From Terriglobus saanensis SP1PR4 (GTDB taxonomy: Bacteria > Acidobacteriota > Terriglobia > Terriglobales > Acidobacteriaceae), in the NCBI RefSeq assembly GCF_000179915.2, contig NC_014963.1:3410001-3474000 (forward strand): a stretch of DNA of 64,000 nt. Reading direction: 5' to 3'. The notes beneath the pieces are model-generated. The model was not told where the DNA came from. It made no database searches and saw nothing but the letters and a program-made list of their open reading frames with translations. Shown in pieces: positions 12,167-29,491 of the stretch. The position numbers were made by a program, and so were the translations under genes. The number at the start of each line of letters is the position of its first letter. Position 1 is the stretch's first letter.

Positions 12167-12187
12167 GGCTCCGACCTTCTTCCGCAG

Positions 12188-12293
12188 TGCGAAATATTAC
12201 ACGACCCTGCGGCATCTCGACCAGCTGGCAAAATGCTGCAAAGAAGGCCAATTCCGGGAATGTGCGGCCAATCGATATTTCGCAGAACGAAAT
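12188..12293. promoter_or_regulatory. Candidate operator: palindrome ATTTCG-N5-CGAAAT plus distal inverted half-site
   Basis: ATTTCG-cagaa-CGAAAT (12277-12293) is a perfect 6+6 palindrome. Part of it (ATATTTCGCA, 12275-12284) is exactly inverted relative to TGCGAAATAT at 12188-12197, 77 bases away. Both lie in the 238-base divergent gap between the IclR-like regulator and the receptor. This layout suits a dimeric regulator binding two sites, possibly with looping. The binding is inferred. Confidence 0.5.
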
Positions 12294-12404
12294 AGTCGTT
12301 CCACGCCCTTTTCCAATGGTGCCTCGTGAGTGAGATGCCTAGTATGGCCGTCGTTCGCAGGCTTGCACCGTCATCGCTGCTCGGGCCTGCACTCAGGAGG
12401 CAAT

Positions 12405-15400
12405 ATGAAATCCGTACCATCAACATGCAGGTCCTTGCGGGACAACGCGAGGCGCCGGGCCGGGGCCTGGTTGAGATCGACGCTATTTTTAATAATTATG
12501 GCGATGGTGCTCTTTATGCCGCAGAGGTGTAGAGCACAATCGACTACCGGAGATATCGTCGCGGCAGTCATTGACCCATCGAACGCTGCCATCCCGAAGG
12601 TGGGGCTCGTTCTTTCGCAGGTCGAGACCGGTCAACAGATCAAGCAGACCGGTGATGCGAACGGCCTGGCGGTCTTCAGCTCGCTCAAGCCGGGCAACTA
12701 TAAACTGATTGCGACGCAGCCCGGCTTCAGAACAACGGAGTTGGACAACATCACGGTGGTCATCGGACAGCGTGTCAGCCTGGACGTGCGGATGCAGGTG
12801 GGAGCAAGCAGCGAGTCTGTGACGATCTCCGCCAGTGAAGCCGCTCTTCTCAACTCAGAGAGCGCCTCCGTGGGTCAGGTGATCAATAAAAGCAGCATCG
12901 ATACGCTGCCGCTGAATGGCCGCAATTTCATTCAACTGACTCAGCTGACCACAGGGGCCGCACCCATCGGCGCAGGCAATTCTCCTGCAACAACATGGAC
13001 TGGCCGCTCCGACACGACGGTGTCCTTCGCTGGCCTTCGGGAGAGCGACACGAGCTTCCTGGTGAACGGAATCGAGACGCGCAATGCCCGGTTTGGCAAT
13101 ACGGGCATTCGTCCCTCGGTGGACGCCATCCAGGAGTTCCGCGTGCAGAGGACGACCTTCGGCGCTGAGTTCGGACATGCTGCTTCCATCGTCAACACGG
13201 AGTTGCTGGGCGGCGCAAACCCGTTCCATCTCGTCCTGTTTGAACTGAATCGCAACCGCGCCTACGCTGCCAATACCTACTTTGCAAAGCAGGCGGGAGC
13301 GCAGCAGCCAGCGCTGAATCAGAACAACTTTGGTGCTACGTTGAGCGGGCCTGTTCTTCTGCCGAAGATTTATAACGGGCGAGACAAGACATTTTTCATG
13401 TTCAACTTTGAAGCCTTTCGGCTGACCCAGGGGCAGACGCTGACGAGCATCTATCCGTCGGTCGCGCAACTGCAAGGCAATCTAGCGGACGATAGCGCAG
13501 GGACTGGGCTCTATCCGACCAACTCAGCCTTTTGCGCTGCGAACTCTTCTTCCGCAAAGTGCGTTGATGTGATCAATCCCCTGACCAACCAGCCTTTCGC
13601 AGGAAATATTATTCCGACGGCGCAGCTCGATGCTACTGCGCAGAAGGCACTGCAGTTTATTCCTGCTCCGAACCTTGGAAGCGCCGGAGGTGTGAACTTC
13701 CCGAGCTTTAACACAATCCGTACACCGCGCAATACGCAGAGCATCAATCAGTACAACGTTCGACTGGATCACAGGTTCAGTGATCGCGACAGCATCTATG
13801 CGACCTGGTCCGACAGCAATGACATCCTGTACTCACCGGCGATTAATCCACTCGGTGGCAATACGGCGCCTTTGAACGACCATCTCTGGACGGGTACTTA
13901 CGCACACGTCTTCTCACCGACTCTCTTCAACGAATTCCGATTCGGTGTCAACGACTCGGCGACCTTCCGCAATGCAGAGAGTGCCTTTGGTCCAAACTAC
14001 GCGGGCGATCTGTTTGGGCTACCGTATGCGAACAATGCGGATGCCGCCACGTATGGCGTACCCAACTTCGGCATCTCGGGGTTCGGTCCGGTAGGCTCCA
14101 TCACCGAAGTGATCGGAGCGGATGACAAGAATTACCAGGTCTCCGACAACCTTACCTGGACGCATGGACGGCTAACCTCGGTCAACGGGCTTCAATACCT
14201 GCATGAGAGCTTCACCCAGATCACGGATTTCGGATCGAATCCCAATCTTGTTTATAACAACGGCTATTCGACGCGGAATGCTTCAGGGAATCGTGTGAGC
14301 AGCATCGGGCTCAGCGACTTTCTTCTTGGCGAACCCTATTCGATTACGGCAGCCAGTGGCGACTCGACCCAATCCCTGCATACTGCTTACTACGGCTTCT
14401 TCTCGCAGAACAACTGGAAGGTCCTCCCGTCGTTGACGCTCAACCTTGGGCTTCGATACGAGTATGCGGGATCTCCCATCGAGTCCCGCGATCGGAGTCA
14501 GTTCTTCGATACAACAAACGGTCAGTTCTACTATGCGGGCTCTACGATCCGGCGATCGATTGTGAAGCCGGATAAGAATAACTTTGCGCCTCGCCTAGGC
14601 TTTGCATGGCGTCCACCTTCTCTTACCAATACGGTGATTCGCGGCGGTGTAGGAACTTATTACGCCACCGACAACTTCAACGAAGAACAGTTCAAGAACC
14701 AGGGAAGCCCCTTCTATACCTCCCGGAGCAATACGCCGAGTTCTACCACTCCTGTCTCGATCTTCAATCCATTCGCTTCGAGCTCCACTGCGTTCCCGCC
14801 GGCAAACGCAAATATCTTTACTCTGGATCAGAACAATCGCACGTCTTACATCAACCAATGGGGATTGGATATTCAACAATCCTTTGCATCGGATTATCTT
14901 TTTGAACTGGAGTACGCAGGAGGTAGCGGGCAGAAGCTGGCGCAGCGGCGCAATGCGAACATTGGCGCTGTCGATACGACGGGGAAGATCCCCCTCCTGA
15001 ACCGCGTTCCTTTCCCACAGTATGGCTTCATCCTGGTGACCGGCAACTACGGCCGGTCGAACTACAACGCACTCACCGCGAAACTGGAGAAGCGGCTGAG
15101 CCATGGAAATTCTTTTCTGGTTGCTTATACGTTCTCGAAGGCAATCGACATCGGCATCACGGATGACTTCTCTGCTCTCTCGACCGACTTCTTTCGTTAC
15201 GACCGTGGAGTCTCCGACTACCACGTGCCGCATCGGCTGGTCATAAGCTATGCCTATCAACTTCCGTTCGGCCGTGGCAAAACATTCTTTGGAACGGCTC
15301 CTCTTCCCGTGGAGTATCTCATTGGAGGCTGGCAGTTCAACGGGATTACAAGCTTTAGTTCAGGCCAGTACAGCACGCCCACGCTAGCGGGTGACAACCT

Positions 15401-15758
15401 GAATATCGGCTCCTTCAGTCAATCGCGTCCCAATCGTGTGTCGGACCCGAGGATTGGTCGGAACACCCCCACACAGTGGTTCAACGTGGCAGCGTTCGTA
15501 CAACCAGCCTTTGGGACTCCGGGCAATGCGGGGCGTAACTCTGTCGAGCAGCCTGGCTATCAAAATTGGGATGCCAGCTTGTTCAAGGCTTTTCCTGTGA
15601 AAGATCGTGCTAACTTCCAGTTGCGGCTGGAAGCATTCAATCTCTTCAATCACACACAGTTTGGATCGGCGAATACTTCAGTCGGTCCGGGGTTCGGCTC
15701 AATTACATCCACGAGAGCCGCACGCATCGTCCAGGTCGGCGGCAGGTTCCAGTTCTAG
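12405..15758 (+). CDS. TonB-dependent receptor, Oar type
   Basis: The ATG at 12405 is preceded by AGGAGG four bases upstream, which decides the start over an upstream frame from 12330. The product has 1117 residues. A signal peptide ends near RCRAQS. A carboxypeptidase-regulatory-like domain follows (AAVIDPSNAAIPKVGLVL, GNYKLIATQPGFRT), then a plug with LPLNGRNFIQLTQL and FLVNGIETRNARFG, and a long outer-membrane barrel ending in VQVGGRFQF with the usual terminal aromatic residue. It heads an operon with a GH39-like glycosidase 33 bases downstream, then rhamnose mutarotase and a sugar isomerase. It is therefore probably the importer for the oligosaccharide processed by those enzymes. Confidence 0.92.
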   Translation: MKSVPSTCRSLRDNARRRAGAWLRSTLFLIIMAMVLFMPQRCRAQSTTGDIVAAVIDPSNAAIPKVGLVLSQVETGQQIKQTGDANGLAVFSSLKPGNYKLIATQPGFRTTELDNITVVIGQRVSLDVRMQVGASSESVTISASEAALLNSESASVGQVINKSSIDTLPLNGRNFIQLTQLTTGAAPIGAGNSPATTWTGRSDTTVSFAGLRESDTSFLVNGIETRNARFGNTGIRPSVDAIQEFRVQRTTFGAEFGHAASIVNTELLGGANPFHLVLFELNRNRAYAANTYFAKQAGAQQPALNQNNFGATLSGPVLLPKIYNGRDKTFFMFNFEAFRLTQGQTLTSIYPSVAQLQGNLADDSAGTGLYPTNSAFCAANSSSAKCVDVINPLTNQPFAGNIIPTAQLDATAQKALQFIPAPNLGSAGGVNFPSFNTIRTPRNTQSINQYNVRLDHRFSDRDSIYATWSDSNDILYSPAINPLGGNTAPLNDHLWTGTYAHVFSPTLFNEFRFGVNDSATFRNAESAFGPNYAGDLFGLPYANNADAATYGVPNFGISGFGPVGSITEVIGADDKNYQVSDNLTWTHGRLTSVNGLQYLHESFTQITDFGSNPNLVYNNGYSTRNASGNRVSSIGLSDFLLGEPYSITAASGDSTQSLHTAYYGFFSQNNWKVLPSLTLNLGLRYEYAGSPIESRDRSQFFDTTNGQFYYAGSTIRRSIVKPDKNNFAPRLGFAWRPPSLTNTVIRGGVGTYYATDNFNEEQFKNQGSPFYTSRSNTPSSTTPVSIFNPFASSSTAFPPANANIFTLDQNNRTSYINQWGLDIQQSFASDYLFELEYAGGSGQKLAQRRNANIGAVDTTGKIPLLNRVPFPQYGFILVTGNYGRSNYNALTAKLEKRLSHGNSFLVAYTFSKAIDIGITDDFSALSTDFFRYDRGVSDYHVPHRLVISYAYQLPFGRGKTFFGTAPLPVEYLIGGWQFNGITSFSSGQYSTPTLAGDNLNIGSFSQSRPNRVSDPRIGRNTPTQWFNVAAFVQPAFGTPGNAGRNSVEQPGYQNWDASLFKAFPVKDRANFQLRLEAFNLFNHTQFGSANTSVGPGFGSITSTRAARIVQVGGRFQF

Positions 15759-15791
15759 ATCCAGTACCAGGCTTTCATAAGAGAGGAAACT

Positions 15792-17303
15792 ATGATTCTG
15801 AGAAGTAAGTATTTGTCTCTTGCAGCCATCTTTGTTTTTGGCATTGCATGCTCTTCTGGCGCACAGGATGCGAAGAGGTATGAGATCAAGATTGATCGAT
15901 CGAAGTCTCTGGTTTCTAAATCGACTCCTACGCTTCAGGTCGTGGTGAACCCGATGCTTCTTCGGGGGGCGCCGATGCATGATGGATCTTTTGAGGCGCT
16001 GCATGCGCTCGGAGCGGACTATGTCCGTTACGTTCCCTGGCTTCCCTATCCACGTCAGGCCGTGGCAGAGCTTGAGGAGCCGAAGGATGGTCATACTTCG
16101 TGGGACTTTTCGCATATCGATCCCACGCTTGAAGACTTCATGAAGGCGACCGAAGGGCACAGCGTCATCCTTAACTTCAGCACGATCCCTGCATGGATGT
16201 ACAAGACGGCGAAACCGGTCACCTACCCCACGGATCCGAACGAGGTTTCCTGGGACTACACACAGGGAACAGAGCTACGCGATCCTTCGATGAAGGAGGT
16301 GGCAGGCTATTTCGTCCGACTTCTGAGTTGGTACACGAAGGGTGGGCTCACGGATGAGTACGGGAAGTGGCATGAATCAGGACATCACTACAAGGTGGCG
16401 TATTGGGAGTTATTAAACGAGATCGACTTCGAGCACCATTGGTCTCCGGAGACCTACACGCGTTTCTATGACGCGACGGTGGAAGCCATGCGGAAGGTCG
16501 ATCCCAATTTGAAGTTCGTGGCGCTTGCCATGGCGATCCCGGGAAAGAGTCCGGAGATGTTTGCGTACTTTCTGAACCCGGCGCACCATCGCAAGGGTAT
16601 TCCGATCGATTTCATCTCCTACCACTTCTACGCTTCGCCCGGCGACGACCAAACGCTCGATCACTGGCAGTTCACCTTTTTTGCGGAAGAGGAAGGCTTC
16701 CTGAACACAGTCCGCTATATCGAGACCATTCGGAAGCACTATGCTCCCTCGGTGAAGACCGATCTGGATGAGATTGGAGTGATTCTTGCCGAAGATGGGA
16801 AGGAGAATGCCCAGCCCGGAAAATACGTCGCAAAAGACGAGCCACCTGCCTATTGGAATCTGGCTGGAGCCATGTATGCCGACCTCTATACGCAATGCGC
16901 TCGCATGGGGATCGATGTGATTGGTGAGTCGCAATTGGTGGGCTACAAATCCCAGTTTCCGAGTGTCAGCATGGTGAATTACAAGACTTCAAAGCCCAAT
17001 GCACGTTTGTTGATCTTGAAGCTGCTTCACGACAACTTCGGACCGGGAGACAAGATTCCTGACACGACCGGTGGAGATTCTTCTCTAACCATCCAGGCCT
17101 TCGATACAAAAGAGGGACACAAGCTACTGTTGATCAATAAGCGAAATCGCGGACAGGAAGTTACTCTGCCATCTGACGTGGGAAGTTATCGCGTCTCTCG
17201 TGTTGTAACGTCGGCAGCCGACAGCATCGAAACGGCGGAAGCTCAGTCTCGCCGTTCGTTGAAATTGGAACCCTTCGAAGTTGCTGTGCTTACATGGAAG
17301 TGA
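15792..17303 (+). CDS. Clan GH-A glycoside hydrolase, GH39-like
   Basis: The 503-residue secreted protein has a signal peptide (LAAIFVFGIACSSGAQ), a (beta/alpha)8 barrel and a C-terminal beta domain. The acid/base is probably Glu210 in YWELLNEIDFEHHW and the nucleophile Glu327 in KTDLDEIGV, the spacing expected for retaining clan GH-A enzymes. Features such as GADYVRYVPWLPYP and IDFISYHFYASPGDD suggest family GH39, which includes beta-xylosidases and uronidases; GH51 is a less likely alternative. It starts 33 bases after the receptor with AGAGGAAACT as ribosome-binding site and precedes rhamnose-related genes. The substrate is therefore probably a deoxysugar-containing glycan, but this is inference. 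Confidence 0.82.
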   Translation: MILRSKYLSLAAIFVFGIACSSGAQDAKRYEIKIDRSKSLVSKSTPTLQVVVNPMLLRGAPMHDGSFEALHALGADYVRYVPWLPYPRQAVAELEEPKDGHTSWDFSHIDPTLEDFMKATEGHSVILNFSTIPAWMYKTAKPVTYPTDPNEVSWDYTQGTELRDPSMKEVAGYFVRLLSWYTKGGLTDEYGKWHESGHHYKVAYWELLNEIDFEHHWSPETYTRFYDATVEAMRKVDPNLKFVALAMAIPGKSPEMFAYFLNPAHHRKGIPIDFISYHFYASPGDDQTLDHWQFTFFAEEEGFLNTVRYIETIRKHYAPSVKTDLDEIGVILAEDGKENAQPGKYVAKDEPPAYWNLAGAMYADLYTQCARMGIDVIGESQLVGYKSQFPSVSMVNYKTSKPNARLLILKLLHDNFGPGDKIPDTTGGDSSLTIQAFDTKEGHKLLLINKRNRGQEVTLPSDVGSYRVSRVVTSAADSIETAEAQSRRSLKLEPFEVAVLTWK

Positions 17304-17315
17304 GGGTAGCCGCAC

Positions 17316-17696
17316 ATGCAACGGGTTGCGTTCCAACTATGCATCAAGGAAGGTTGCGAACAGGCCTATGACGAAGCCCACCGCAGAGTCTGGCCGGAAC
17401 TTATCTCTGAGCTGCGGGCCGCGGGCGTTGTGGAGTATTCCATCTTTCGACGCAACCAGGACCTGTTTCTGTATATGGAAGTGTTGAGCTTCGATTCTTT
17501 TCTTCAGTATCTTGATGAGAGCGAGGTGGACCGGCGATGGCAGCAGGAGATGGCAGACCTGTTTGTGCAGGTTCCCTCTCTACGCTCGGGAGAACGTTTC
17601 GCCATGATGAACGAGGTGTTCCATATGTCCGGTCAGAAGACATCTACAACCGACCAAGAGAGAACGAACGAAAGGATGTCATCGAATGGAAGCTGA
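17316..17696 (+). CDS. rhaM: L-rhamnose mutarotase
   Basis: The 126-residue protein matches RhaM over its first ~105 residues: MQRVAFQLCIKEGCEQAYDEAHRRVWPEL, GVVEYSIFRRNQDLFLYMEV, RRWQQEMADLF and the C-terminal LRSGERFAMMNEVFHM. RhaM interconverts the alpha and beta anomers of L-rhamnose in the cytosol. The last ~20 residues are a low-complexity tail that runs into the next gene, overlapping it by 11 bases and suggesting translational coupling. It starts 12 bases after the GH39-like gene. It supports rhamnose, or a related 6-deoxy sugar, as a product of the locus. Confidence 0.92.
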   Translation: MQRVAFQLCIKEGCEQAYDEAHRRVWPELISELRAAGVVEYSIFRRNQDLFLYMEVLSFDSFLQYLDESEVDRRWQQEMADLFVQVPSLRSGERFAMMNEVFHMSGQKTSTTDQERTNERMSSNGS

Positions 17697-19122
17697 GTAC
17701 AGCGCGCTGCGTGTGGGTCTTGTCGGTTTGGGCCTGGAGGCTTATTGGAGTCAGTTCGAAGGTTTGGAGCAGAGGCTTCGTGGATATCTCACGACCGTGG
17801 AGGAACGTATCGCTGTTCCTAACCGGCAAATCGTGAATCTGGGTCTCGTCGACAGCCCCGAGAAGGCACAGGAAGCGGCACACCGTTGCCGCAAGGAAGA
17901 GATCGACATCCTGCTGGTGTATGTCACAACATACGCCTTATCATCTACCGTTCTGCCTCTGATCAAACGTGCCAAGGTGCCTGTGGTTCTTTTGAATCTG
18001 CAGCCGGAGCGAAGCATTGATTACGCGCGGTTCAATGCAATGCAAGACAGAAGGAAGATGACCGGGGACTGGCTGGCCTACTGCAGCGCATGTCCCGTTC
18101 CTGAGATCGCGAACGTTCTTAGCAGGTTGTCGATTGCGTTCCAGCAGGTGACGGGAACGCTGGAACCAGAACATCCGTGCTGGCAGCAGATTGAAGAGTG
18201 GCTGCAGGCCGCCTACGTTGTGCACCGGTTGGCTGAGAGTCGTCTCGGTCTCATGGGCCACTACTACGGTGGGATGTTGGATATCTCTACCGACCTGGTC
18301 CAGGTAAGCGGGCGATTCGATGTTCATATTGAAATGATTGAAGTGGATGAGTTGAGCGCACTGCGGCGAGAGGTTGACGAGGAAGCGATCCAGAGCAAGA
18401 TCCGGAGCTTTCGGGAGTTCTTCACCGTTGGCGAAGATTGCACAGAGGTCGAACTGAACAGGGCGGCAAAAACAGCAGTCGCGCTCGATCAACTTGCCCA
18501 GGAGAAGCGTCTGGATCTGATGGCTTACTACTATAAAGGCAGTGGAATCGCTGAGAATGAAGACACGATGAGTTCGATCATTCTCGGAACCTCCATGCTG
18601 ACTGGAAGTGGCTTACCCGTGGCGGGCGAATATGAAATCAAGAATGCCATTGCAATGAAGATCATGGATTTGCTCGGTGCCGGTGGGTCTTTCACGGAGT
18701 ATTACGCGATGGACTTCGAGCGGGATGTCGTCCTTATGGGACATGACGGGCCAGGTCACGTCGGGATCGCGGAAGACAAGATCAGGGTTCGGCCTCTGGA
18801 GGTGTATCACGGCAAGGTGGGAAACGGACTTTCTGTAGAGATGTCCGTAAAGCATGGCCCGGTGACTCTTCTCTCTGTCGTGGAAGATCGCGAGCACGGC
18901 TTCAAGTTACTGGTCGCCGAAGGAGAGAGCGTAGCGGGGCCTATTTTGGAGATCGGCAACACGAATAGCAGTTACAAATTCAGTGTGGGGGCGACAGCAT
19001 TCGCAGAGTCATGGAACGCAAATGGTCCCGCACACCACTGTGCCATCGGTGTCGGACATGTAGCATCCTCGATCAAAAAGATCGCTGAATTACTTGGACT
19101 GAAAGCGGTTCAGATTTGTTGA
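17686..19122 (+). CDS. L-fucose/L-arabinose isomerase family protein
   Basis: The 478-residue protein has an N-terminal fucose/arabinose-isomerase fold (LRVGLVGLGLEAYWSQFEGL, EEIDILLVYVTTYALSSTVLPL, VPVVLLNLQP). The C-terminal domain has GEYEIKNAIAMKIMDLLGAGGSFTEYYAMDF and LMGHDGPGHVGIAEDKI, as in AraA/FucI relatives that bind a divalent metal. The reaction would be aldose-to-ketose isomerisation. Its coupling to RhaM (11-base overlap, AAAGGA ribosome-binding site inside rhaM) suggests L-rhamnose, L-fucose or L-arabinose as the substrate, not decided by sequence. No kinase or aldolase gene follows, so the pathway must continue elsewhere. Confidence 0.83.
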   Translation: MEAEYSALRVGLVGLGLEAYWSQFEGLEQRLRGYLTTVEERIAVPNRQIVNLGLVDSPEKAQEAAHRCRKEEIDILLVYVTTYALSSTVLPLIKRAKVPVVLLNLQPERSIDYARFNAMQDRRKMTGDWLAYCSACPVPEIANVLSRLSIAFQQVTGTLEPEHPCWQQIEEWLQAAYVVHRLAESRLGLMGHYYGGMLDISTDLVQVSGRFDVHIEMIEVDELSALRREVDEEAIQSKIRSFREFFTVGEDCTEVELNRAAKTAVALDQLAQEKRLDLMAYYYKGSGIAENEDTMSSIILGTSMLTGSGLPVAGEYEIKNAIAMKIMDLLGAGGSFTEYYAMDFERDVVLMGHDGPGHVGIAEDKIRVRPLEVYHGKVGNGLSVEMSVKHGPVTLLSVVEDREHGFKLLVAEGESVAGPILEIGNTNSSYKFSVGATAFAESWNANGPAHHCAIGVGHVASSIKKIAELLGLKAVQIC

Positions 19123-19426
19123 AATGCTTTCGCATAGGAAGGCCGACGCCAGGGGGAGATTCACTCCATGTAAAGCAGAGGGAATTTATGCAACCGCTTG
19201 CTTTGTGTTATTCTTTCTTTCGTATGCGAAGCACACACATCCATTTGACGTATTGTTGTTGCTGTTGACCCTCTCTGCGGTCCGGCAAGAACTATGGGCG
19301 GTCTAGTTCTTCTTCTCATCCCCTGAATGAATAAAAAATTAGTGTTCGACGCTTTTGTGTCTTACCTGTTTTTTGTGCGCGGAAATCTTTCTGCGCCTTT
19401 GCGACTTATGTCGTCCGAGAGGCTTT
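19123..19426 (+). promoter_or_regulatory. Intergenic region upstream of second receptor
   Basis: This gap of about 300 bases contains T-rich sequence and a TTG-rich stretch (about 19251-19268). It presumably holds the promoter of the receptor at 19427. A 60-codon open frame (19124-19306) has no credible ribosome-binding site. I see no strong terminator or operator. Confidence 0.35.
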
Positions 19427-22400: not shown

Positions 22401-22663
22401 TGGGCACGTTTGGGAATTTGGGGTTGAACACCATCCGCCAGCCTGGATTGAATAGCACGCAGTTCAATCTCTCAAAAAAAGCGACCTTCCGCCTAGTTGG
22501 AGATACCCCGGTCACAGCGAAGTTTGAAGGAGAATTCTTCAATCTCTTCAACCACCCGGCGTTTAATGGACTGGGAACCACCGTCGGTGCAGCGACCTTT
22601 GGCAAGATCACGTCCGCACTTGATCCACGGAATGTTGTCTTCAAGTTGAAGTTCTCTTTTTAG
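19427..22663 (+). CDS. TonB-dependent receptor, Oar type
   Basis: The start at 19427 is set by GAGAGG just upstream; an earlier in-frame ATG at 19355 would add a non-signal-like extension. The 1078-residue product has a signal peptide (LSFVLMFFSSFLSISANGQS), a regulatory-like domain (TVTDSAGAVLPEAEVTV, GIYSLPALRAGEYVVRVQAPGF) and a plug (LATNGRNFTQFLSLGTGV). The barrel ends NVVFKLKFSF. It is followed 35 bases later by a Tat-exported sulfatase, so it may import a sulfated glycan or its fragments. It is divergent in sequence from the receptor at 12405, so the two likely have different substrates. Confidence 0.92.
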   Translation: MLSKRSLSFVLMFFSSFLSISANGQSSGSGTLSGTVTDSAGAVLPEAEVTVRQTATGVERSTKTNSSGIYSLPALRAGEYVVRVQAPGFQRIEQDGVVLQSDTTRTINLQLAVGGASDTTTVTTAAPAIETSEGSLNTIITGTQLSELATNGRNFTQFLSLGTGVSSSQTGQRMGVGQEGNPLTSVNGGRINSNAFTYDGILAMDTGGNRGLNLFPPMEAIQEIQVHKSNYTADIGSFGYSQVNVVTRSGGEKYHGDVYEVFSNDALNARNYFNTSKPPLHDNNFGYDFGGHLLPGAKGKFTRNLFFFWSQAFDRRSGPELTSFTSAPQSTFTATTPTVAQRAGNFAGSAAITNPDTGLPYAGNQITNIDPNATLLLNAYFPLPNSTSSSNYVISPKSQTKWREELIRIDATLSPSDTITARYAHDAWSQQQAILKPSNQSFATIGGFFAKPGQSGVLQWTHIFSPTLLNQATIGYSRNQITQSPDSNGQRPAGLTIPSLYGANIYNLIPTITISGFSSIGAQGLTNNTNNVYTWRDDVTKQLHSHSFKAGFNILRIQKFDRFPYGGQAGSFSFTGSATGNALADFLTGHAFSYVEQSNVPNVYLFSNMYEAYVQDDWKITRNLTFNLGVRDTIFQGAPNGYDKYDRISGFVPSLYSAANAPTVTSTGTLVAGTGDPLNGIITPGNLKGLDLPRSLTGARNNIGPRVGFAWSPFGSSTTSVRGGYGLFYHWDNDNHENLSGNPPFAQSATIYNTTLTGFASGAQTLFPPTLAAFDTRKLYPTVTQYSLTVEKQLPGSTVLSVSYVGNSARHLDQTPNINQAQPNAAVAAGTVNVNTVRPYRGYAAINYDVRSASASYNSLQVDARRRFKNGFLFEAAYTYSRSLGSQVGQNQFVNEKGPTAYDRPQSFTINYVYDLPFFRGRRSLAAYTLGGWEVSGVSTFQGGTPVTLAISADRAGVGNTGQRPNVTGPVTYQHGNINGYFSTTNFSQPALGTFGNLGLNTIRQPGLNSTQFNLSKKATFRLVGDTPVTAKFEGEFFNLFNHPAFNGLGTTVGAATFGKITSALDPRNVVFKLKFSF

Positions 22664-22698
22664 GCGCAACGCACGTTTTGATAGACGAAAGGATTTCC

Positions 22699-24201
22699 AT
22701 GTCAGAAGTAAAATCATCCAACGAAGACTTTCAGGCTGTGACGCCAAGCAAAGCGACCAGGCGTGATTTTCTACAGGCGTCGCTTGCCATTGCAGGCACA
22801 GCAGCGGTTTCGAGCGTAGCGACAACTCCGCCGGCAGTCGCACAGACGAAGCAGAAGCGCCCTAACCTCGTCTTCTTTTTTGGAGAAGGCCAACGGGCGG
22901 ATGCACTCTCCATCGCCGGACATCCCATTCTCAAGACACCGAACCATGACCGTATCGGACGCGAAGGTGTTCGCTTTACCAACGCGTTCTGCACCAATGC
23001 GCTTTGCGCCCCTGCCCGTGCGACTGCACTCACGGGCATGTATTCGCGTTCGACGGGGGCGCTCGACAATACGAAGGGCCGCATTCCACTTGCTTCGGAT
23101 ATCCCGCTCTTCACGGAGATCCTTCAGAAAGAGGGATACGAGGTTGCGATCCTGGGGAAGGTACACACGCGCAATGGCGTGGAGGAGCGGAATTGGGACT
23201 ATTACTTCGGACACAACAATCCGAGCAACGACTATGCGAATCCTCTGTTTAAGGAAGGCCGCAGAGGGAAAGTGGGTCCGCAGAAACAGTATGAGGCCGT
23301 CTATCCAGACGACCTTACGACCGACCGCGCCATTTCCTGGATCGACGAAGATCGTGGCGACAAGCCGTTCTGCGTTCTGATCTGGTTTGTTGCACCGCAC
23401 GAGCCCTTCTTCCGTCCGCGCCGTCATGCGGATCTCTACAACGGCACACCCATAGCCAAGCCCGTGACTTTTGATGACGATCTCAAGGGATATCCCGGCA
23501 AGCCAAAGAGCTTTGTTGCTGCGGAAAACAAGCTTGGAACCACGTCCAGTCACGTGGCCTGCGGGTCGCTCGAAGGCGTCGCGAAGGATTATTACGCAGG
23601 GCTAGTCGCAGTGGATGAGAATATCGGCCGCGTTCTCGATCATCTGGAGAAAAAGAAGATTCTCGACGACACGGCCATCCTGCATAGCTCCGACCATGGA
23701 TACTTCCTGGGAGAGTGGAGGCTCTTCGATAAGCGACTGATGCACGAGCCTTCGATCCGCGTTCCGTTCCAGGTACGTTATCCGAAGCGTATTCCTTCCG
23801 GTACGGTGCGTGAAGAGATGGTGTTGGACACAGACATTGCACCCACTCTTTTGGATCTTGCGGGTGTGCCAATTCCAGCGCACATGCAAGGCAAGAGCAT
23901 TCTGCCGCTGACAAAGAAGAACGATCCGGAGTTCCGCAAGGAGTGGTACTACGAGTATTACGAGTGGCCGAACCCGGAGAAAGTAGCTCCGCACCGCGGC
24001 ATTCGCACGGAACAATACAAACTGATTCAATACGTCCTCGATCCCACAGAAGGAGAACTTTACGATCTGAAGAAAGATCCGGGTGAACGCAATAATCTTT
24101 ATGGCGCGTCGCAGTTCACCGCTCTTCAGAGTCATCTGACAGAACGACTTAACGCTTTGCGTGCGGAGATTCCTGAACGTAAGGAAGCCAGTCAGAGTTA
24201 G
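22699..24201 (+). CDS. Sulfatase, Tat-exported
   Basis: The start at 22699 has GAAAGGA five bases upstream; a TTG at 22678 is less likely. The 500-residue product carries a twin-arginine signal (TRRDFLQASLAIAGTAAV). The formylglycine motif is C103-A-P-A-R with TALTGMYS, a Cys-type sulfatase matured by a formylglycine-generating enzyme. SDHGYFLGEW (Asp332, His333) and SIRVPFQVRYP are conserved. The N-terminal metal motif, normally two adjacent Asp residues, reads F-F-G-E63-G64-Q-R-A-D, which is unusual. It cuts sulfate esters, here probably on a polysaccharide, given the receptor immediately upstream. A perfect 18-bp stem-loop follows the stop. Confidence 0.88.
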   Translation: MSEVKSSNEDFQAVTPSKATRRDFLQASLAIAGTAAVSSVATTPPAVAQTKQKRPNLVFFFGEGQRADALSIAGHPILKTPNHDRIGREGVRFTNAFCTNALCAPARATALTGMYSRSTGALDNTKGRIPLASDIPLFTEILQKEGYEVAILGKVHTRNGVEERNWDYYFGHNNPSNDYANPLFKEGRRGKVGPQKQYEAVYPDDLTTDRAISWIDEDRGDKPFCVLIWFVAPHEPFFRPRRHADLYNGTPIAKPVTFDDDLKGYPGKPKSFVAAENKLGTTSSHVACGSLEGVAKDYYAGLVAVDENIGRVLDHLEKKKILDDTAILHSSDHGYFLGEWRLFDKRLMHEPSIRVPFQVRYPKRIPSGTVREEMVLDTDIAPTLLDLAGVPIPAHMQGKSILPLTKKNDPEFRKEWYYEYYEWPNPEKVAPHRGIRTEQYKLIQYVLDPTEGELYDLKKDPGERNNLYGASQFTALQSHLTERLNALRAEIPERKEASQS

Positions 24202-24205
24202 CTGA

Positions 24206-24252
24206 CCAGTATCCCGCAGCAAATCCCCGATGGTTTTGCTGCGGGATACTGG
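24206..24252. terminator. Perfect 18-bp inverted repeat after the sulfatase gene
   Basis: CCAGTATCCCGCAGCAAA (24206-24223) is exactly complementary to 24235-24252, with an 11-base loop. No T-run follows on either strand, so it may act as a Rho-assisted terminator or a 3'-end stabilising stem. Confidence 0.65.
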
Positions 24253-24357
24253 ACGCTATGGGAGTTCGGCCTGGCTCTGCAACCGCTTCACAACTCGCTG
24301 GTCCGTTTCGCAACATTTCACGCGACACGATCATGACCGCTCGATAGCATCCGGCTC

Positions 24358-25524
24358 ATGAGAAACTCAATCGCCTCCCTCTCTCAGATCCTGATCTGTT
24401 TCGCCTCTTTCACAGTGAGCGCCTCGGCTCACGCAGCGGAACAGATCAAAGTTCCAATGACCAATGACCGCTGGACGACGACAGCCGGGAAGGTAGACTT
24501 TGTCGAATTCAAGGGCAAGCCGTCGATTGAATTGAAGGCTGGCAACTACGCGCAGCATGTTCCCACCGGTGCAGCGGTGCTCAAAGACCTTACCTTTCGC
24601 AACGGAACGATCGAGTACGATGTTGCGGCGACCAGCGACATGGGCGCAGGCTTCGTCTTCCGTCGCGCAGACAAAGACAACTACGAAATGTTCTATCTGC
24701 GCCCCAGGCCCAAATGCCAGGAGGCCCCGGATTGCGTGCAATACGCTCCAGAGACGCACGGTGTTTTATTGTGGGATGTCTTCCCTCAGTATCAAGGGCC
24801 TGCACCCTTGCGCATGGACGAGTGGAATCACATTAAGCTGGTAGTCTCCGGCAAACGCATGCACGTCTACGTGAACGGCGCGGCGGAACCGACCTTGAAG
24901 ATTGGACGATTGGAGGGGGACGCCAGCGAGGGCGGCCTCATGTTGGAAGGACCCGGCATCTTCGCCAATCTCGTCGTTACTCCGGACGCAGTGGAAGGCC
25001 TGCCCAGTGAACCAGAGAGCGACGCAACGATGTCCGACGATCGCTACGTGCGCCACTGGAAGCTTTCGCCCTTCGCGAAGCTGGAGGCGGGTCAAATGCC
25101 GACTTTCGCCGATCTGCCGAAGGTCTCGGCGGCATGGACCTCGCTCGACGCAGAACGGGGAGGCCTGGTGAACGCAAGCCGCATCTATGGATTGCCTTTG
25201 GCCCGAGCGGACCGCGCCGTAGTCTGGCTCAAGACAAACATTCACTCCGAGAGCACCCAGGAAAAGCACGTTACGCTGGGATGGCTCCGCGAGATTGTGG
25301 TGTTTGTAAATGGTCAACTCGTCTTTGCGGACAAGAACCTGTATCAGCCACCGGCGGCACGCAAGACGCCAGATGGACGTCTATCGCTGGAAAACGGCTC
25401 GTTGATGCTTCCCCTGAAGGCCGGTGATAATGAAGTGGCTGTAGCCATCGTGAATAACTTTTACGGGTGGGGGCTTCAGATGCACTTCGACGACGTGAAA
25501 GGGCTTACACTGGCCGCGCAATAG
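24358..25524 (+). CDS. Secreted protein with concanavalin-like (DUF1080/LamG-type) domain and galactose-binding-like C-terminus
   Basis: The 388-residue protein has a signal peptide ending near SAHAAEQ. Residues about 45-220 resemble a laminin-G/DUF1080 jelly roll (FRNGTIEYDVAATSDMGAGFVFRRADKDNYEMFYLRP, WNHIKLVVSGKRMHVYVNG). Residues about 240-385 resemble a galactose-binding-like beta-sandwich (RADRAVVWLKTNI, GWLREIVVFVNGQLVFADKN, LKAGDNEVAVAIVNNFYGWG). No catalytic residues are recognised, so it may be a carbohydrate-binding or sensing protein. Its stop lies only 26 bases before the probable start of a LytS-type kinase, which hints at co-transcription and perhaps a periplasmic ligand-binding role for that kinase. 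That link is inference. Confidence 0.72.
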   Translation: MRNSIASLSQILICFASFTVSASAHAAEQIKVPMTNDRWTTTAGKVDFVEFKGKPSIELKAGNYAQHVPTGAAVLKDLTFRNGTIEYDVAATSDMGAGFVFRRADKDNYEMFYLRPRPKCQEAPDCVQYAPETHGVLLWDVFPQYQGPAPLRMDEWNHIKLVVSGKRMHVYVNGAAEPTLKIGRLEGDASEGGLMLEGPGIFANLVVTPDAVEGLPSEPESDATMSDDRYVRHWKLSPFAKLEAGQMPTFADLPKVSAAWTSLDAERGGLVNASRIYGLPLARADRAVVWLKTNIHSESTQEKHVTLGWLREIVVFVNGQLVFADKNLYQPPAARKTPDGRLSLENGSLMLPLKAGDNEVAVAIVNNFYGWGLQMHFDDVKGLTLAAQ

Positions 25525-25550
25525 CAGAGGGAAAGAAGAGCGGGAGGCAT

Positions 25551-26678
25551 TTGGTTATCGATAGAGAGCGGCGCTCAGTGTTTGGCGGAAGCAGCAGGTG
25601 GGGCCGTTGGTTCGTCGCCTTCCTGCTCTGGAGCATCCTCGGCCTGCTGTTTGCGCTTCCCAATCTATCGGCTTCCAACTGGATCCACCCGCTCCTCGGT
25701 TCGCTCGCGCAGTGGTGGTCCTGGGGGTTGGTCACTCCGCTTATCTTCTGGGTGGACGAACGACTTCCATTCGAGGAAGCTCATCCTGGCAAGCGTGTCC
25801 TTGCACAGCTGCTGCCCAGCATCGCTTTAACCACTCTCTATGTCTACGTCTTTGCAGCCGTGCGAGCGCTCTTCGGTCTGAGCGCGTGGAATTCGCTGAC
25901 GGGTACACAGCTCCTTTTCATGGCATTTCGCGGCGGCATTCTTTGGAGCCTGCTGGTCTATTGGCTTATCTTCGGGGCACGCCAGACCTTTCGCTACCAT
26001 GAGCACTACCTGGCCAGCGAGCTGCGATTGGAGCGCATGGAGCGCAGCTTTTCTCAGGCCCGCCTTGAATCACTGCGCATGCAACTGGATCCGCATTTCC
26101 TCTTCAACGCGCTGAACACCATCTCCTCGCAGGTGGAACGAGACCCCAGGCTCGCGCGCAGCATGATCGAGCATCTCGGAGATCTGCTCCGGCTTTCCCT
26201 CGAGGCCCACGACAAACAAGAGGTCCCGCTCGCGGAAGAGATGGCTTTTCTGGATCACTATCTTGCGATACAAACCATTCGTTTTGGAGCCAGCCTACGT
26301 TTTGAAACTCACATCGCACCGGAGGTAAAGTTCGTGCTGGTTCCCTGCCTCATGGTGCAGCCCCTCGTCGAGAATGCGATCCGTCACGGTATCTCCCACC
26401 GTGCCTCGGGTGGAGAGGTCATCGTCACGGCACGGCGGAACGCGGAGCGTCTCGAGATTCGCGTCACCGACGATGGAGTAGGGCTGCCACCCGGTTGGAC
26501 GCTCGAAAACTCCACAGGACTCGGACTCTCCGTCACGCGCGAACGCATTGCGGGTCTCTATCCCAAGGGAAGCAGCCATTTTGCAGTATCGCGACGGCCT
26601 GAAGGAGGCACAGAAGTCGAGATATCCTTGCCTTTGCGATGGTCTGGAGGAGAAACCGATGATCGCACCGCGCGATGA
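25551..26678 (+). CDS. LytS-type sensor histidine kinase (His_kinase family)
   Basis: I choose a TTG start at 25551 because GGGAGG lies four bases upstream. A longer frame from GTG 25467 would overlap the preceding gene by 58 bases. The 375-residue product has four probable transmembrane helices in its first ~150 residues (FVAFLLWSILGLLFALPNL, WWSWGLVTPLIFW, ALTTLYVYVFAAVRALFGL, GGILWSLLVYWLIF). A short coiled segment follows, then the phospho-acceptor box LDPHFLFNALNTISSQ and a HATPase domain (VQPLVENAIRHGIS, VTDDGVGLPPG). It overlaps its LytTR partner by 20 bases. With no large extracytoplasmic domain, it probably senses through its membrane helices or with a partner protein. Confidence 0.88.
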   Translation: MVIDRERRSVFGGSSRWGRWFVAFLLWSILGLLFALPNLSASNWIHPLLGSLAQWWSWGLVTPLIFWVDERLPFEEAHPGKRVLAQLLPSIALTTLYVYVFAAVRALFGLSAWNSLTGTQLLFMAFRGGILWSLLVYWLIFGARQTFRYHEHYLASELRLERMERSFSQARLESLRMQLDPHFLFNALNTISSQVERDPRLARSMIEHLGDLLRLSLEAHDKQEVPLAEEMAFLDHYLAIQTIRFGASLRFETHIAPEVKFVLVPCLMVQPLVENAIRHGISHRASGGEVIVTARRNAERLEIRVTDDGVGLPPGWTLENSTGLGLSVTRERIAGLYPKGSSHFAVSRRPEGGTEVEISLPLRWSGGETDDRTAR

Positions 26679-27444
26679 AGCCCTGCGTATTCTCGTGGCG
26701 GATGATGAAGCGCCGGCACGCCAGCGCCTGATCGACCTGTTGCAGAAAGACTCGCGCGTTGGGATTATTTTTGAAGCCAGCGACGGACAGGCAGCAGTAG
26801 AAATTATCGAACGCGAGGCCCCCGATCTTATCTTTCTCGATGTGCAGATGCCGGAGCTCAGTGGACTGGAAGTCATCGAAGCCATCGGCGCCGCAGCCAT
26901 GCCACTCACTATCTTTGTCACGGCCTACGATCAACATGCGATTCGAGCTTTTGAAGCTAATGCACTCGATTACCTGCTGAAGCCCTTTAGTGACGAACGA
27001 CTGGAAGCCGCGTTGGCCCGTGCCAAGACTCGGCATGATGAGCGTAGCGTGCAGGAGTTCGGACGCAACATTCTGCGCATGGTCTCCGCGACGCCGCCAG
27101 TCGACCGACGAATCGACCGGTTGGTCGTAAGAACTGCAGGGACGACTCGCTTCATTCGCGTAGTGGATATCGATTGGATCGAGGCCGCAGGCGTCTATGT
27201 CAATCTACATGTCGGCGGGAAAGAGTTGCTCTACCGCGCTTCAATCAACGAGCTTACCGACCGGTTCGATCCGATGCGTTTTATCCGCGTCCATCGGTCG
27301 GCCATCGTTAATATCGATAGCATTGTCGAGCTCCAGCCTATTTCTCACGGCGAGTTCGAACTTGTTCTGAAAGATGGTCACCGCTCGCGTGTCAGCAGAA
27401 CCTATCGAGGTCTGCTTGAGAAGCGGCTAGGTCAATCTTTATAA
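26659..27444 (+). CDS. LytTR-family response regulator
   Basis: The ATG at 26659 is preceded by GGAGGAGA, and the gene overlaps the kinase gene by 20 bases. The 261-residue product has a receiver domain (LRILVADDEAPARQRL, phospho-acceptor Asp in LIFLDVQMPELSG, LKPF) and a C-terminal LytTR DNA-binding domain (VVRTAGTTRFIRVVDIDWIEAAGVYVNLH, FIRVHRSAIVNIDSIVEL, RVSRTYRGLLEKRL). It would be phosphorylated by the kinase encoded just upstream. Targets are probably nearby genes of this block, such as the sulfatase or the sugar dehydrogenase, but no direct-repeat LytTR site was identified with confidence. Confidence 0.92.
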   Translation: MIAPRDEALRILVADDEAPARQRLIDLLQKDSRVGIIFEASDGQAAVEIIEREAPDLIFLDVQMPELSGLEVIEAIGAAAMPLTIFVTAYDQHAIRAFEANALDYLLKPFSDERLEAALARAKTRHDERSVQEFGRNILRMVSATPPVDRRIDRLVVRTAGTTRFIRVVDIDWIEAAGVYVNLHVGGKELLYRASINELTDRFDPMRFIRVHRSAIVNIDSIVELQPISHGEFELVLKDGHRSRVSRTYRGLLEKRLGQSL

Positions 27445-27621
27445 GGAGAGATCGCAACTTCATGGCCGACAATGACCTTTCGGAAGCCGTTCCGATAGTG
27501 TCGTTCATCCTACAATCGACTAAGCGGGTTACTCTGTAACGGAACAAAAGATTTCGAAGACAAGCGTTGGCGTGACAAGATTTTTCGACACCGATCACTC
27601 GATTGATAAAGGGAGAAAAAG

Positions 27622-28842
27622 ATGAAGCATTTTGCGATCGCGGGGCTTTGCCTAGCCATGGCCGCGAGCGGAGCATTGGCACAGGTCAATGCAGGGGAAC
27701 AGAAGTCTGAGCCTAGCCTGCCATTCAATATGGTTCAGGTAACGACGTTGAGCTTGCCCTGGAAGATCGCTTTCCTACCCGACGGGCGGATGCTGATTAC
27801 CGAGAAGGTCGGCGGTTTGCAATTGGTCACCCAGCAAGGAGCAAAGACGCCCGTTACGGGCGCGCCAGCCGTTCTCTATCGAGGTCAGGGTGGAATGCTG
27901 GGTGTCTACGTTTCGCCACACTATGCCAAAGACCACAATATCTACCTCACCTATTCAGAACCCGGCGACGGAGGGTCGAGCCTGGCGCTTGCGCGTGCCC
28001 AGTTGAAGATCGGCCAGGATGCGGCAAGCCTTGAGGGGCTCCAAGTGATCTGGCGCGACGGCGAGAGAGGGGATGGCGGCCAGTTCGGCGCGGAGGTTGC
28101 CTTTTCTCCAAACGGCAAGTATCTCTTTCTCTCCTCTGGCGATCGTCAGCGGATGACGCCAGCCCAGGACCCTAACCAGCCGCTCGGTAAGATATTGCGA
28201 CTGACGCTGGATGGCAAACCGGCTCCGGGCAATCCGATGGCTGGCAAGACAGGCACGCCCACTGTGCCCGTCATCGATCCTCCTGCAAATACGGAAGAAG
28301 CGAAGACCGCCCCGGTCATAAGAACGTACACCTTTCCCGGCCCTAATCTGACGCCAGCGGAGACTTGGAGCACGGGAATCCGTACTCCCTATGGTCTGGC
28401 CTTTGCGCCGGACGGTCGGTTGTGGGAGCTTGAGCATGGACCACGGGGCGGCGATGAGTTGAACCTGATCGAACCCGGCAAAAATTATGGCTGGCCGCTG
28501 GTCTCTTACGGACACAACTATGACGGTGTGCCCATTCCCAATCCGGACACACGCCCCGACTTGACGAAGCCTGTTATTTATTGGGTGCCAGTCATCGCAC
28601 CGGGCAACCTCGTGTTCTACAAAGGAGCAATGTTCTCGAAGTGGAATGGCTCGGCTCTTGCGAGCGGACTGATATCGAAAGCGCTCATCCGCATCACCTT
28701 CGACGGCAAGGGAGGAGCGCAGACTGCGGAGCGATGGGATATAGGTCGTAGAGTCCGCGACGTGGAAGTTGCTCCTGATGGCGCGCTGTGGATGATCGAG
28801 GATGCAAAGCCAGGTGGTCTCTTCCGCCTGACACCGAAATAA
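27622..28842 (+). CDS. PQQ-dependent soluble sugar dehydrogenase (Asd/YliI-like)
   Basis: The 406-residue protein has a clear signal peptide (FAIAGLCLAMAASGALAQ) and a six-bladed propeller with the soluble aldose-dehydrogenase signatures: LSLPWKIAFLPDGRMLITEK, GGMLGVYVSPHY, DPNQPLGKILRLTLDG, WSTGIRTPYGLAFAPDGRLWELEHGPRGGDELNLI and GKNYGWPLVSYG. Such periplasmic enzymes oxidise aldoses with PQQ. The position of the usual general-base His, in the motif HFGSR, reads Q154-F-G-A-E. The downstream gene encodes a c-type cytochrome, a plausible electron acceptor, but a stem-loop sits between them. GGGAGAAAAAG precedes the ATG. Confidence 0.85.
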   Translation: MKHFAIAGLCLAMAASGALAQVNAGEQKSEPSLPFNMVQVTTLSLPWKIAFLPDGRMLITEKVGGLQLVTQQGAKTPVTGAPAVLYRGQGGMLGVYVSPHYAKDHNIYLTYSEPGDGGSSLALARAQLKIGQDAASLEGLQVIWRDGERGDGGQFGAEVAFSPNGKYLFLSSGDRQRMTPAQDPNQPLGKILRLTLDGKPAPGNPMAGKTGTPTVPVIDPPANTEEAKTAPVIRTYTFPGPNLTPAETWSTGIRTPYGLAFAPDGRLWELEHGPRGGDELNLIEPGKNYGWPLVSYGHNYDGVPIPNPDTRPDLTKPVIYWVPVIAPGNLVFYKGAMFSKWNGSALASGLISKALIRITFDGKGGAQTAERWDIGRRVRDVEVAPDGALWMIEDAKPGGLFRLTPK

Positions 28843-28856
28843 GGCCAGGTCTTCTT

Positions 28857-28885
28857 CTACCGCCTAAGCAAAGCTTAGGCGGTAG
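28857..28885. terminator. Perfect 13-bp inverted repeat with AAA loop
   Basis: CTACCGCCTAAGC (28857-28869) and GCTTAGGCGGTAG (28873-28885) form a strong stem with a three-base loop, 14 bases after the sugar-dehydrogenase stop. There is no following T-run, so it may attenuate or stabilise the transcript rather than end it. Confidence 0.6.
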
Positions 28886-28924
28886 GCGAGATCAACGTTG
28901 TAACCCCGGAAGAGCGATGACGAT

Positions 28925-29491
28925 ATGGACCAAAAATTGAAAGTAGTGTTTGGGGCGATGTTTGCGTCACTGTGCTTCCTTTGCCTCTCTGGGGAAGCCG
29001 TTGGCCAGACTCTGCCGGAGGGCAAAGGCAAGGCGGAATTTGTACACAACTGCACTGCCTGTCACCGCGCGGATATGACCACCCGTCTAAGGAAGACCCC
29101 GGATGAGTGGAGAAAAACTGTTGATAACATGGCAGCCCGCGGCACGGATGGCTCAAAAGAAGATCTGGACAACGTCGTTCTCTACCTGGTCACAAATTTT
29201 GCAGCGGACGAGCCTGGCCCGGCTGCGACAACTCCATCCACAACGCCTCCTTCGATCTCGGCTGGAACAGCGGTGCTGAACTCCTCAGAGATCGAACGCG
29301 TGAAGCGCATCATCGCGGAGAGCGATTGTTTCGCATGCCGTCGTATAGAAAAACAAGGTGCGTCTACCGAGCCAGCATGGAATGGTGTGGGAGGATGGCG
29401 CATGACGGATGAGATACGAACGGCTATGATTCGTCCGCATCCAACACTCGCGCCAAGCAACAAACTCGTTCGATCGACCGACACGAGGTAG
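28925..29491 (+). CDS. c-type cytochrome, two domains, second haem site altered
   Basis: The 188-residue exported protein has a signal peptide (VVFGAMFASLCFLCLSGEAVGQ). Domain 1 (about 30-95) contains a normal haem c motif, C43-T-A-C46-H47, with a possible axial Met in DNMAARG. After a Pro/Thr linker, domain 2 (about 120-188) has C135-F-A-C138-R139, in which the haem-ligating His is replaced by Arg (CGT, one transition from CAT). The protein ends soon after a segment (IRPHPTLAPSNKLVRSTDTR) where related proteins usually continue, so domain 2 may be decayed or truncated. It lies 82 bases after the PQQ sugar dehydrogenase and could be its electron acceptor through domain 1. Confidence 0.75.
   Translation: MDQKLKVVFGAMFASLCFLCLSGEAVGQTLPEGKGKAEFVHNCTACHRADMTTRLRKTPDEWRKTVDNMAARGTDGSKEDLDNVVLYLVTNFAADEPGPAATTPSTTPPSISAGTAVLNSSEIERVKRIIAESDCFACRRIEKQGASTEPAWNGVGGWRMTDEIRTAMIRPHPTLAPSNKLVRSTDTR

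Follow-up and report, generated by a model that had tools for sequence, protein, structure and literature searches.

A rhamnose-linked candidate operon with an AraA-fold isomerase in Terriglobus saanensis SP1PR4

The window analysed here is a stretch of 64,000 nucleotides (G000:C1:3410001-3474000) of the complete, 5.10 Mb genome of Terriglobus saanensis SP1PR4. An initial annotation had described a row of genes in this window, at 12405-29491, as a single polysaccharide-utilisation block joining rhamnose handling, a sulfatase and periplasmic sugar oxidation. Its gene list was correct, as a domain search confirmed that every named gene lies on the + strand and has the domain ascribed to it, and found no SusD model among the proteins of the block; the unit was drawn too broadly. 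We consider it probable that 10973-19122 is one rhamnose-linked catabolic operon, composed of a divergent regulator, an Oar-type TonB-dependent receptor (receptor 1), a GH39-like hydrolase, a RhaM-type mutarotase and an isomerase of the AraA fold, and that the remaining genes belong to other, adjacent units. Only this part behaves like a module, the block as a whole seems to be a series of independent units, and the regulator, which lies outside the range first given, belongs with the first half. The isomerase subfamily is the interesting part of the locus.

Results

Rhamnose genes accompany the isomerase in several phyla

Up to 20 kb was collected around each of 40 relatives of the isomerase. 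The isomerase was recovered by the filter in 39 of these loci (L040 was missed); L068-L070 form a paralogue group, 36-39% identical to the isomerase, and the remaining 36 are proper isomerase loci. Calling of open reading frames (ORFs) hid genes lying under longer antisense ORFs (araB in L037, RhaM in L033), and marker counts were redone on six-frame stop-to-stop segments.

In relatives, the neighbourhood of the isomerase includes GH106 and GH78 alpha-L-rhamnosidases, RhaT, RhaI and RhaEW. In the six-frame search, any rhamnose marker was found in 24/37 acidobacterial isomerase loci and in 48/80 named isomerase loci, compared with 0/20 control loci anchored on the sulfatase; looser, ORF-based profiles gave 25/36, 47/80 and 1/20 respectively. 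Alpha-L-rhamnosidases accompanied the isomerase in 15/37 acidobacterial and 34/80 named loci (by ORF-based search, GH106 in 13/36 and GH78 in 6/36 acidobacterial loci). The named loci with a rhamnose marker belong, by phyla assigned from record titles, to Acidobacteriota (15/24), Bacteroidota (20/34), Verrucomicrobiota (11/18) and Planctomycetota (2/4). A Pfam scan of the named loci, which covered 89 of 112 neighbour proteins (short ones and some near-duplicates were omitted), detected GH130 (5), GH32 (4), SusD (3), RhaA (2), GH28 (2) and GSDH (2). In Deinococcus sp. AJ005, the isomerase orthologue shares one neighbourhood with rhaI, a mutarotase gene and a rhamnose ABC transporter that includes rhaS.

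The genes of the first half are tightly spaced in the window: receptor 1 ends at 15758 and the hydrolase begins at 15792, RhaM follows, and the isomerase overlaps RhaM by 11 bp (Table 1). Among the 36 acidobacterial isomerase loci, the GH39-like gene was kept in 27, the IclR-type/sugar-binding regulator in 21 and RhaM in 11 by ORF-based search (17/37 by six-frame search). A close orthologue of receptor 1 (54-81%) was rarer (6/39 isomerase loci). All five genes were present in L033, in the order of the window and followed by GH106 and GH78 rhamnosidases, and, in a different order, in L048 and L049; other relatives of the window keep parts of the five-gene module.

A palindrome is conserved beside the divergent regulator

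The palindrome ATTTCR-N5-YGAAAT was present, with at most one mismatch, at the 5' end of the regulator gene in 15/17 divergent loci (window counted), a count made with a pattern derived from the same loci. Two copies, 86-134 bp apart, were found in 10/17. At the same threshold, a single match was obtained in 397 kb of sulfatase-anchored control sequence, and the isomerase-anchored loci had five further one-mismatch matches elsewhere, of which the one in L056 precedes a same-strand regulator. In the window, the pattern recurs exactly once more, within a gene at 1435, and 10/100 shuffles reach two matches; the weight of the palindrome therefore lies in its conserved position and not in its count. 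Within the block, copies occur only before receptor 1: none was found before receptor 2, the PF06439 gene, LytS, GSDH or the cytochrome when as many as three of the 19 positions were allowed to mismatch. Scans for promoters and terminators gave matches no more numerous than in shuffles. The host rha locus contains a regulator with the same domain build (42% identity to that of the window), placed between RhaI and RhaEW.

The isomerase has the AraA fold and is distant from AraA

Sequence and structure comparisons place the isomerase in the AraA fold and in a subfamily separate from AraA that appears widespread across phyla. Its model (pLDDT 92.9) matched AraA structures with Z 35-37 over 447-459 residues, and FucI and D-arabinose isomerase with Z 27-28; the next rows reached at most 11.3. 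The solved AraA entries that were listed share 12-18% identity with it. The profile search of solved structures was inflated by one AraA row (L194) and one SftI-like row (L193) that had been added to its alignment. No PF02610 match was detected in the protein, which scores 59.2 bits against the AraA equivalog PRK02929 (cut-off 622) and 60.3 bits against the SftI profile NF048012 (cut-off 700). A sulfoquinovose isomerase tied to the sulfatase was rejected on this score, far under the SftI cut-off, and on the lack of linkage. No PF06134 or RhaI-type (PF01261) match was found in the isomerase either, the RhaI-type protein being a separate host gene.

Residues E315, E338, H353 and H450 are invariant in 22 orthologues and paralogues, and likewise in rhizobial, Deinococcus, Bacteroidota, Verrucomicrobiota and Planctomycetota rows. 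These positions align with the metal ligands of AraA, and we take their roles to be those described for E. coli AraA. Y20, W21 and Q23 are common to the subfamily, where the AraA row compared has Y, G and G. The isomerase is 60-65% identical to copies from Bacteroidota, Verrucomicrobiota and Planctomycetota, 58-62% to most rhizobial and Deinococcus plasmid copies, and 42% to that of Nonomuraea. Judging by titles and the openings of abstracts, no account of this subfamily was found in the literature.

Some relatives were recorded in other settings. Plasmid orthologues of about 60% identity were found in Deinococcus and rhizobia (L227, 3994-10422; L226, L229, L230 and L232), and the pSymB copy of Sinorhizobium meliloti ml56 has an ABC transporter and a CocE/NonD hydrolase as neighbours. 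Two genomes from a different acidobacterial family (L188, 7857-9419; L189, 10579-12138) carry the orthologue divergent to GH106; by eye, it has a signal-peptide-like N-terminal extension there, as if the isomerase might be exported. The paralogues of L068, L069, L070 and L192 (36-39%) lie beside an Oar receptor and a protein of 850-860 residues (no Pfam match in L068); in L068, a major facilitator superfamily transporter and a BD-FAE esterase are next in line.

The isomerase co-occurs with RhaI

Co-occurrence was counted in 249 genomes of the order, an isomerase orthologue being called from 57% identity upwards where the match spanned most of the protein. Before counting, 23/103 isomerase-matched genomes were set to absent (only partial, paralogue or distant matches), as were 6/155 RhaI and 8/181 AraB matches that were weak. 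The isomerase was present in 80/249 genomes and RhaI in 149/249; RhaI was found in 77/80 isomerase-bearing genomes vs 72/169 others (Fisher 2e-18, relatedness not being taken into account). On this co-occurrence, the isomerase was rejected as a replacement for RhaI.

The host has a rha locus of its own at ~1.75 Mb, with RhaT, a LutB-like protein, RhaI, an IclR-type regulator, RhaEW and RhaB; RhaEW passes the NCBI cut-off, and RhaT, RhaI and RhaB are best matches below theirs. Outside the window, the host has another pentose-type isomerase in addition to RhaI.

The GH39-like hydrolase and RhaM

The hydrolase matched PF01229 with 33.2 bits (cut-off 26), over a part of the profile only (141-235 of 472). 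No variation was seen at E210 and E327 in 27 rows; by their spacing, these two are presumably the acid/base and nucleophile glutamates. In fold comparisons of the model (pLDDT 87.2), matches to GH51, GH39 and GH30 were mixed, at TM scores of ~0.5-0.65. RhaM scored 91.6 bits against PF05336 (cut-off 23.4) and 44.9 bits against the TIGR02625 equivalog, under the cut-off of 99.6.

The second half of the block appears to consist of separate units

A gap of 304 bp separates the isomerase from the likely start of receptor 2, and the sulfatase starts 35 bp past receptor 2. A close receptor 2 (73-91%) was found upstream of the sulfatase in 5 of the 20 sulfatase-anchored loci, and another TonB-dependent receptor at 3.7 kb or less upstream in 3/20. 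Because this linkage occurs in sulfatase-anchored loci without the later genes, receptor 2 and the sulfatase form a pair of their own, separate from the rhamnose-linked operon. The PF06439 protein, LytS, LytTR, GSDH and the cytochrome had no match in the 39 isomerase loci (E 1e-10, half coverage), and none was found in the 20 sulfatase-anchored loci. A close sulfatase (71%) was present in only one of the 39 isomerase loci (L051), on the opposite strand, 7.2 kb upstream and with a 29-30% receptor. Distant sulfatases (28-30%) occur in L038, L055 and L059, and a sulfatase in 2/80 named loci; together with the two GSDH neighbours out of 89, these may reflect a loose association of sulfatase and GSDH with isomerase loci.

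The sulfatase carries PF00884 and the motif CAPAR at residue 110; C-x-P-x-R is the formylglycine motif of S1 sulfatases. Its best solved match is 5g2v, an N-acetylglucosamine-6-sulfatase (E 6.8e-86). The host genome encodes an FGE-type protein with CHKSYC, which we take to be the FGE motif. The sulfatase is probably active, because both the CAPAR motif and the FGE-type protein are present. GSDH scored 359.7 bits against PF07995 (cut-off 25), fell far under the TIGR03606 cut-off and resembles the solved aldose dehydrogenases 7cdy and 2g8s. In the cytochrome c, the haem motif CTACH is intact; the second reads CFACR, and the protein ends shortly after. As the second haem histidine is lost and the end is early, this gene may be decaying.

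Two strong hairpins lie in the second half, one after the sulfatase (-40.9 kcal/mol with flanks, z -7.4) and one after GSDH (-26.4 kcal/mol, z -6.4). Both are possible terminators or transcript boundaries, a role we only infer because neither has a T tract.

Table 1. Features of the block and of its upstream region (positions in the window)
Feature	Position	Strand	Basis or remark
Regulator, IclR-type HTH (PF09339) fused to sugar-binding Peripla_BP_4 domain	10973-12166	-	Divergent from operon; domain search
Imperfect second palindrome copy, 2 mismatches/19	12178-12196		98 bp from perfect copy
Perfect operator-like palindrome ATTTCR-N5-YGAAAT	12277-12293		Pattern read from related loci
Oar-type TonB-dependent receptor 1 (PF25183 + PF13620)	12405-15758	+	Domain search
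GH39-like clan GH-A glycosidase (PF01229)	15792-17303	+	N-terminal signal sequence by eye
RhaM-type sugar mutarotase (PF05336)	17316-17696	+	Domain search
AraA-fold aldose isomerase (PF11762/PF02952)	17686-19122	+	Domain search, fold comparison
Oar-type receptor 2 (PF25183 + PF13620)	19427-22663	+	Domain search; pairs with sulfatase
Tat-exported S1-type sulfatase (PF00884 + TAT signal, CAPAR)	22699-24201 (ORF opens 22678)	+	Domain search
Strong hairpin 3' of sulfatase, 21-nt arms, no T tract	24206-24252		Folding energy
PF06439/LamG-like secreted protein	24358-25524	+	Domain search
LytS-type histidine kinase	25467-26678	+	Domain search
LytTR response regulator	26659-27444 from first ATG (ORF opens 26548)	+	Domain search
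GSDH-family (PQQ-type) aldose dehydrogenase	27622-28842	+	PF07995
Perfect 13-bp-stem hairpin in GSDH/cytochrome gap, no T tract	28857-28885		Folding energy
Cytochrome c, one intact and one broken haem motif	28925-29491	+	Domain search

Discussion

We propose that the regulator would bind the paired ATTTCR-N5-YGAAAT sites in the divergent promoter and control receptor 1, the GH39-like hydrolase, RhaM and the isomerase as one transcript. A rhamnose-containing glycoside would be either imported or cleaved on the cell surface; the GH-A hydrolase would free a sugar, RhaM would interconvert its anomers, and the AraA-fold isomerase would turn the aldose into a ketose, to be processed by a kinase and an aldolase encoded elsewhere, in the rhamnose pathway at ~1.75 Mb. 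Because the isomerase would act alongside the canonical RhaI and not in its place, the most likely substrate is another sugar set free along with L-rhamnose. More tentatively, and with slightly less than even confidence, we suggest that this mis-annotated AraA-fold subfamily provides a missing step in the use of rhamnose glycans, that its substrate is neither L-rhamnose nor L-arabinose (L-fucose or another 6-deoxyhexose, for example), and that it has travelled with rhamnosidase loci through at least six phyla.

Several observations weigh against a rhamnose-linked operon. In the six-frame search, rhamnose markers were absent from 13/37 acidobacterial and 32/80 named loci; one of the 48 positives (L142) was scored on an FGGY kinase alone, and the named and unnamed loci share some genomes. 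Neighbours of the rhizobial copies are an AraC regulator, a sugar ABC transporter and sometimes a CocE hydrolase, and no rhamnose genes are in view there. The operon has no kinase or aldolase, and L033 is the only other locus with the five genes in the order of the window. The palindrome is missing from L033 and L055, and in L043 and L054 its copies fall outside the upstream stretch marked by the script, the regulator start being uncertain there; the 15/17 count is in any case no independent test, given the origin of the pattern. The 77/80 co-occurrence with RhaI may owe something to relatedness, and the isomerase co-occurs with AraB as well (75/80 vs 98/169; not significant within RhaI-positive genomes, p 0.23).

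The other explanations concern either the substrate of the isomerase or the extent of the unit. That it duplicates RhaI as a further L-rhamnose isomerase, serving the rhamnose released by this operon, would agree with the position of RhaM immediately before it, the rhamnose operon context in Deinococcus, the regulator shared in build with the host rha locus and the detection of RhaA-family proteins in only 2/89 scanned neighbours; we hold it to be unlikely, as RhaI accompanies the isomerase in nearly all isomerase-bearing genomes counted and is present in the host. The pSymB of S. meliloti 2011, a strain that presumably shares its origin with Rm1021, carries an orthologue (60%). A report on Rm1021 nevertheless describes rhaI mutants as lacking inducible rhamnose isomerase activity (PMC9025865). 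An L-arabinose isomerase is the function under which plasmid records annotate the orthologues, and the AraA fold points the same way, as do the GH51 arabinofuranosidases that rank among the top hits in fold comparisons of the hydrolase. PF02610 (AraA) was not found in the host genome, where an arabinofuranosidase, AraD and AraB lie consecutively (L199, 5497-9696; ~2.07 Mb on G000:C1). In genome G020, araB lies directly upstream of the GH39-like and isomerase genes (L037; L105 is the same genome), araB-araD-araA follow the isomerase in L160, and AraA and the isomerase are mildly exclusive among AraB-positive genomes (p 0.013). Replacement of AraA by the isomerase was attractive for a host lacking PF02610, but the host has an ara-linked type of isomerase, a FucI-like protein at 5046914 (71%). 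The same FucI-like isomerase adjoins araB in 4/19 araB loci (L207, L211, L220 and L223), all in AraA-lacking genomes, and may be the arabinose isomerase there. Further arguments against an arabinose function are the AraA equivalog score, the presence of araB in just 1/37 and 2/80 isomerase loci, and 61 AraB-positive genomes that have neither AraA nor the isomerase; over all 249 genomes, the isomerase and AraA are not associated (15/80 vs 38/169). We regard this function as quite improbable. As a separate observation, either AraA or the alternative FucI-like isomerase adjoins araB in some relatives of the host.

The single block of the initial annotation, in which jointly controlled genes would serve a sulfated deoxysugar glycan and GSDH and the cytochrome would oxidise some of its sugar in the periplasm, draws on the adjacency of the genes on one strand, the complete sulfatase and its FGE-type partner, sulfatases near the isomerase in 4/39 (one close) and 2/80 named loci, and the two GSDH-family neighbours. 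It is very unlikely. The halves show no conserved link in the 39 isomerase and 20 sulfatase loci, and GSDH and the cytochrome, which has one broken haem motif, are linked to neither half in the loci compared; a link of periplasmic oxidation to the glycan is not supported. LytS/LytTR add a second pair of regulators within the block. That the two halves are regulated independently, an outcome which that annotation itself had named as contrary to its proposal, is suggested by operator-like sites found only before receptor 1, by the hairpins at 24206 and 28857 and by the missing linkage; a joint unit was rejected on the same grounds. The deoxysugar part of the proposal is borne out for the first half, as rhamnose; a link of the sulfatase to the glycan is not supported. 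The preferred reading remains a rhamnose-linked operon at 10973-19122, with adjacent units beyond it.

Comparison with known systems

The isomerase resembles AraA in fold (Z ~37 over ~456 residues) and in the four metal-ligand positions; it differs in its low identity (12-18%), in lacking PF02610, in having W21 and Q23 where the AraA row has G, and in that its relatives lie mostly outside ara operons. FucI and SftI belong to the same superfamily, with a weak SftI profile match (60 bits), but the fold match to FucI is lower (Z 27-28) and the SftI score is far under the cut-off (700 bits). The N-acetylglucosamine-6-sulfatase 5g2v is the best solved match of the sulfatase, which is a separate unit here.

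The operon shares with the SusC/SusD polysaccharide-utilisation loci of Bacteroidota a TonB-dependent receptor, a secreted glycosidase and sugar-pathway genes; unlike them, it has an Oar-type receptor, a regulator type of its own and no SusD. A missing SusD is usual for Oar-type receptors.

The L-rhamnose regulon (RhaM, RhaT, RhaI/RhaA, RhaB, RhaD/RhaEW) is linked to the operon by shared neighbourhoods across phyla, by RhaM and by the regulator of the same build in the host rha locus; the difference is that the operon adds an AraA-fold isomerase. By term search, the main text of a 2013 survey of rhamnose regulons contains neither 'arabinose isomerase' nor 'fucose isomerase' (PMC3870299). In Acidobacteriota, Bacteroidota, Verrucomicrobiota, Planctomycetota and Deinococcota, the isomerase family is found among or close to genes for rhamnose and alpha-L-rhamnosidases; it also occurs in rhizobia and, in the genomes that were counted, accompanies the known rhamnose isomerase. 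Knowing its substrate would identify a sugar step of plant glycan breakdown overlooked by current annotation.

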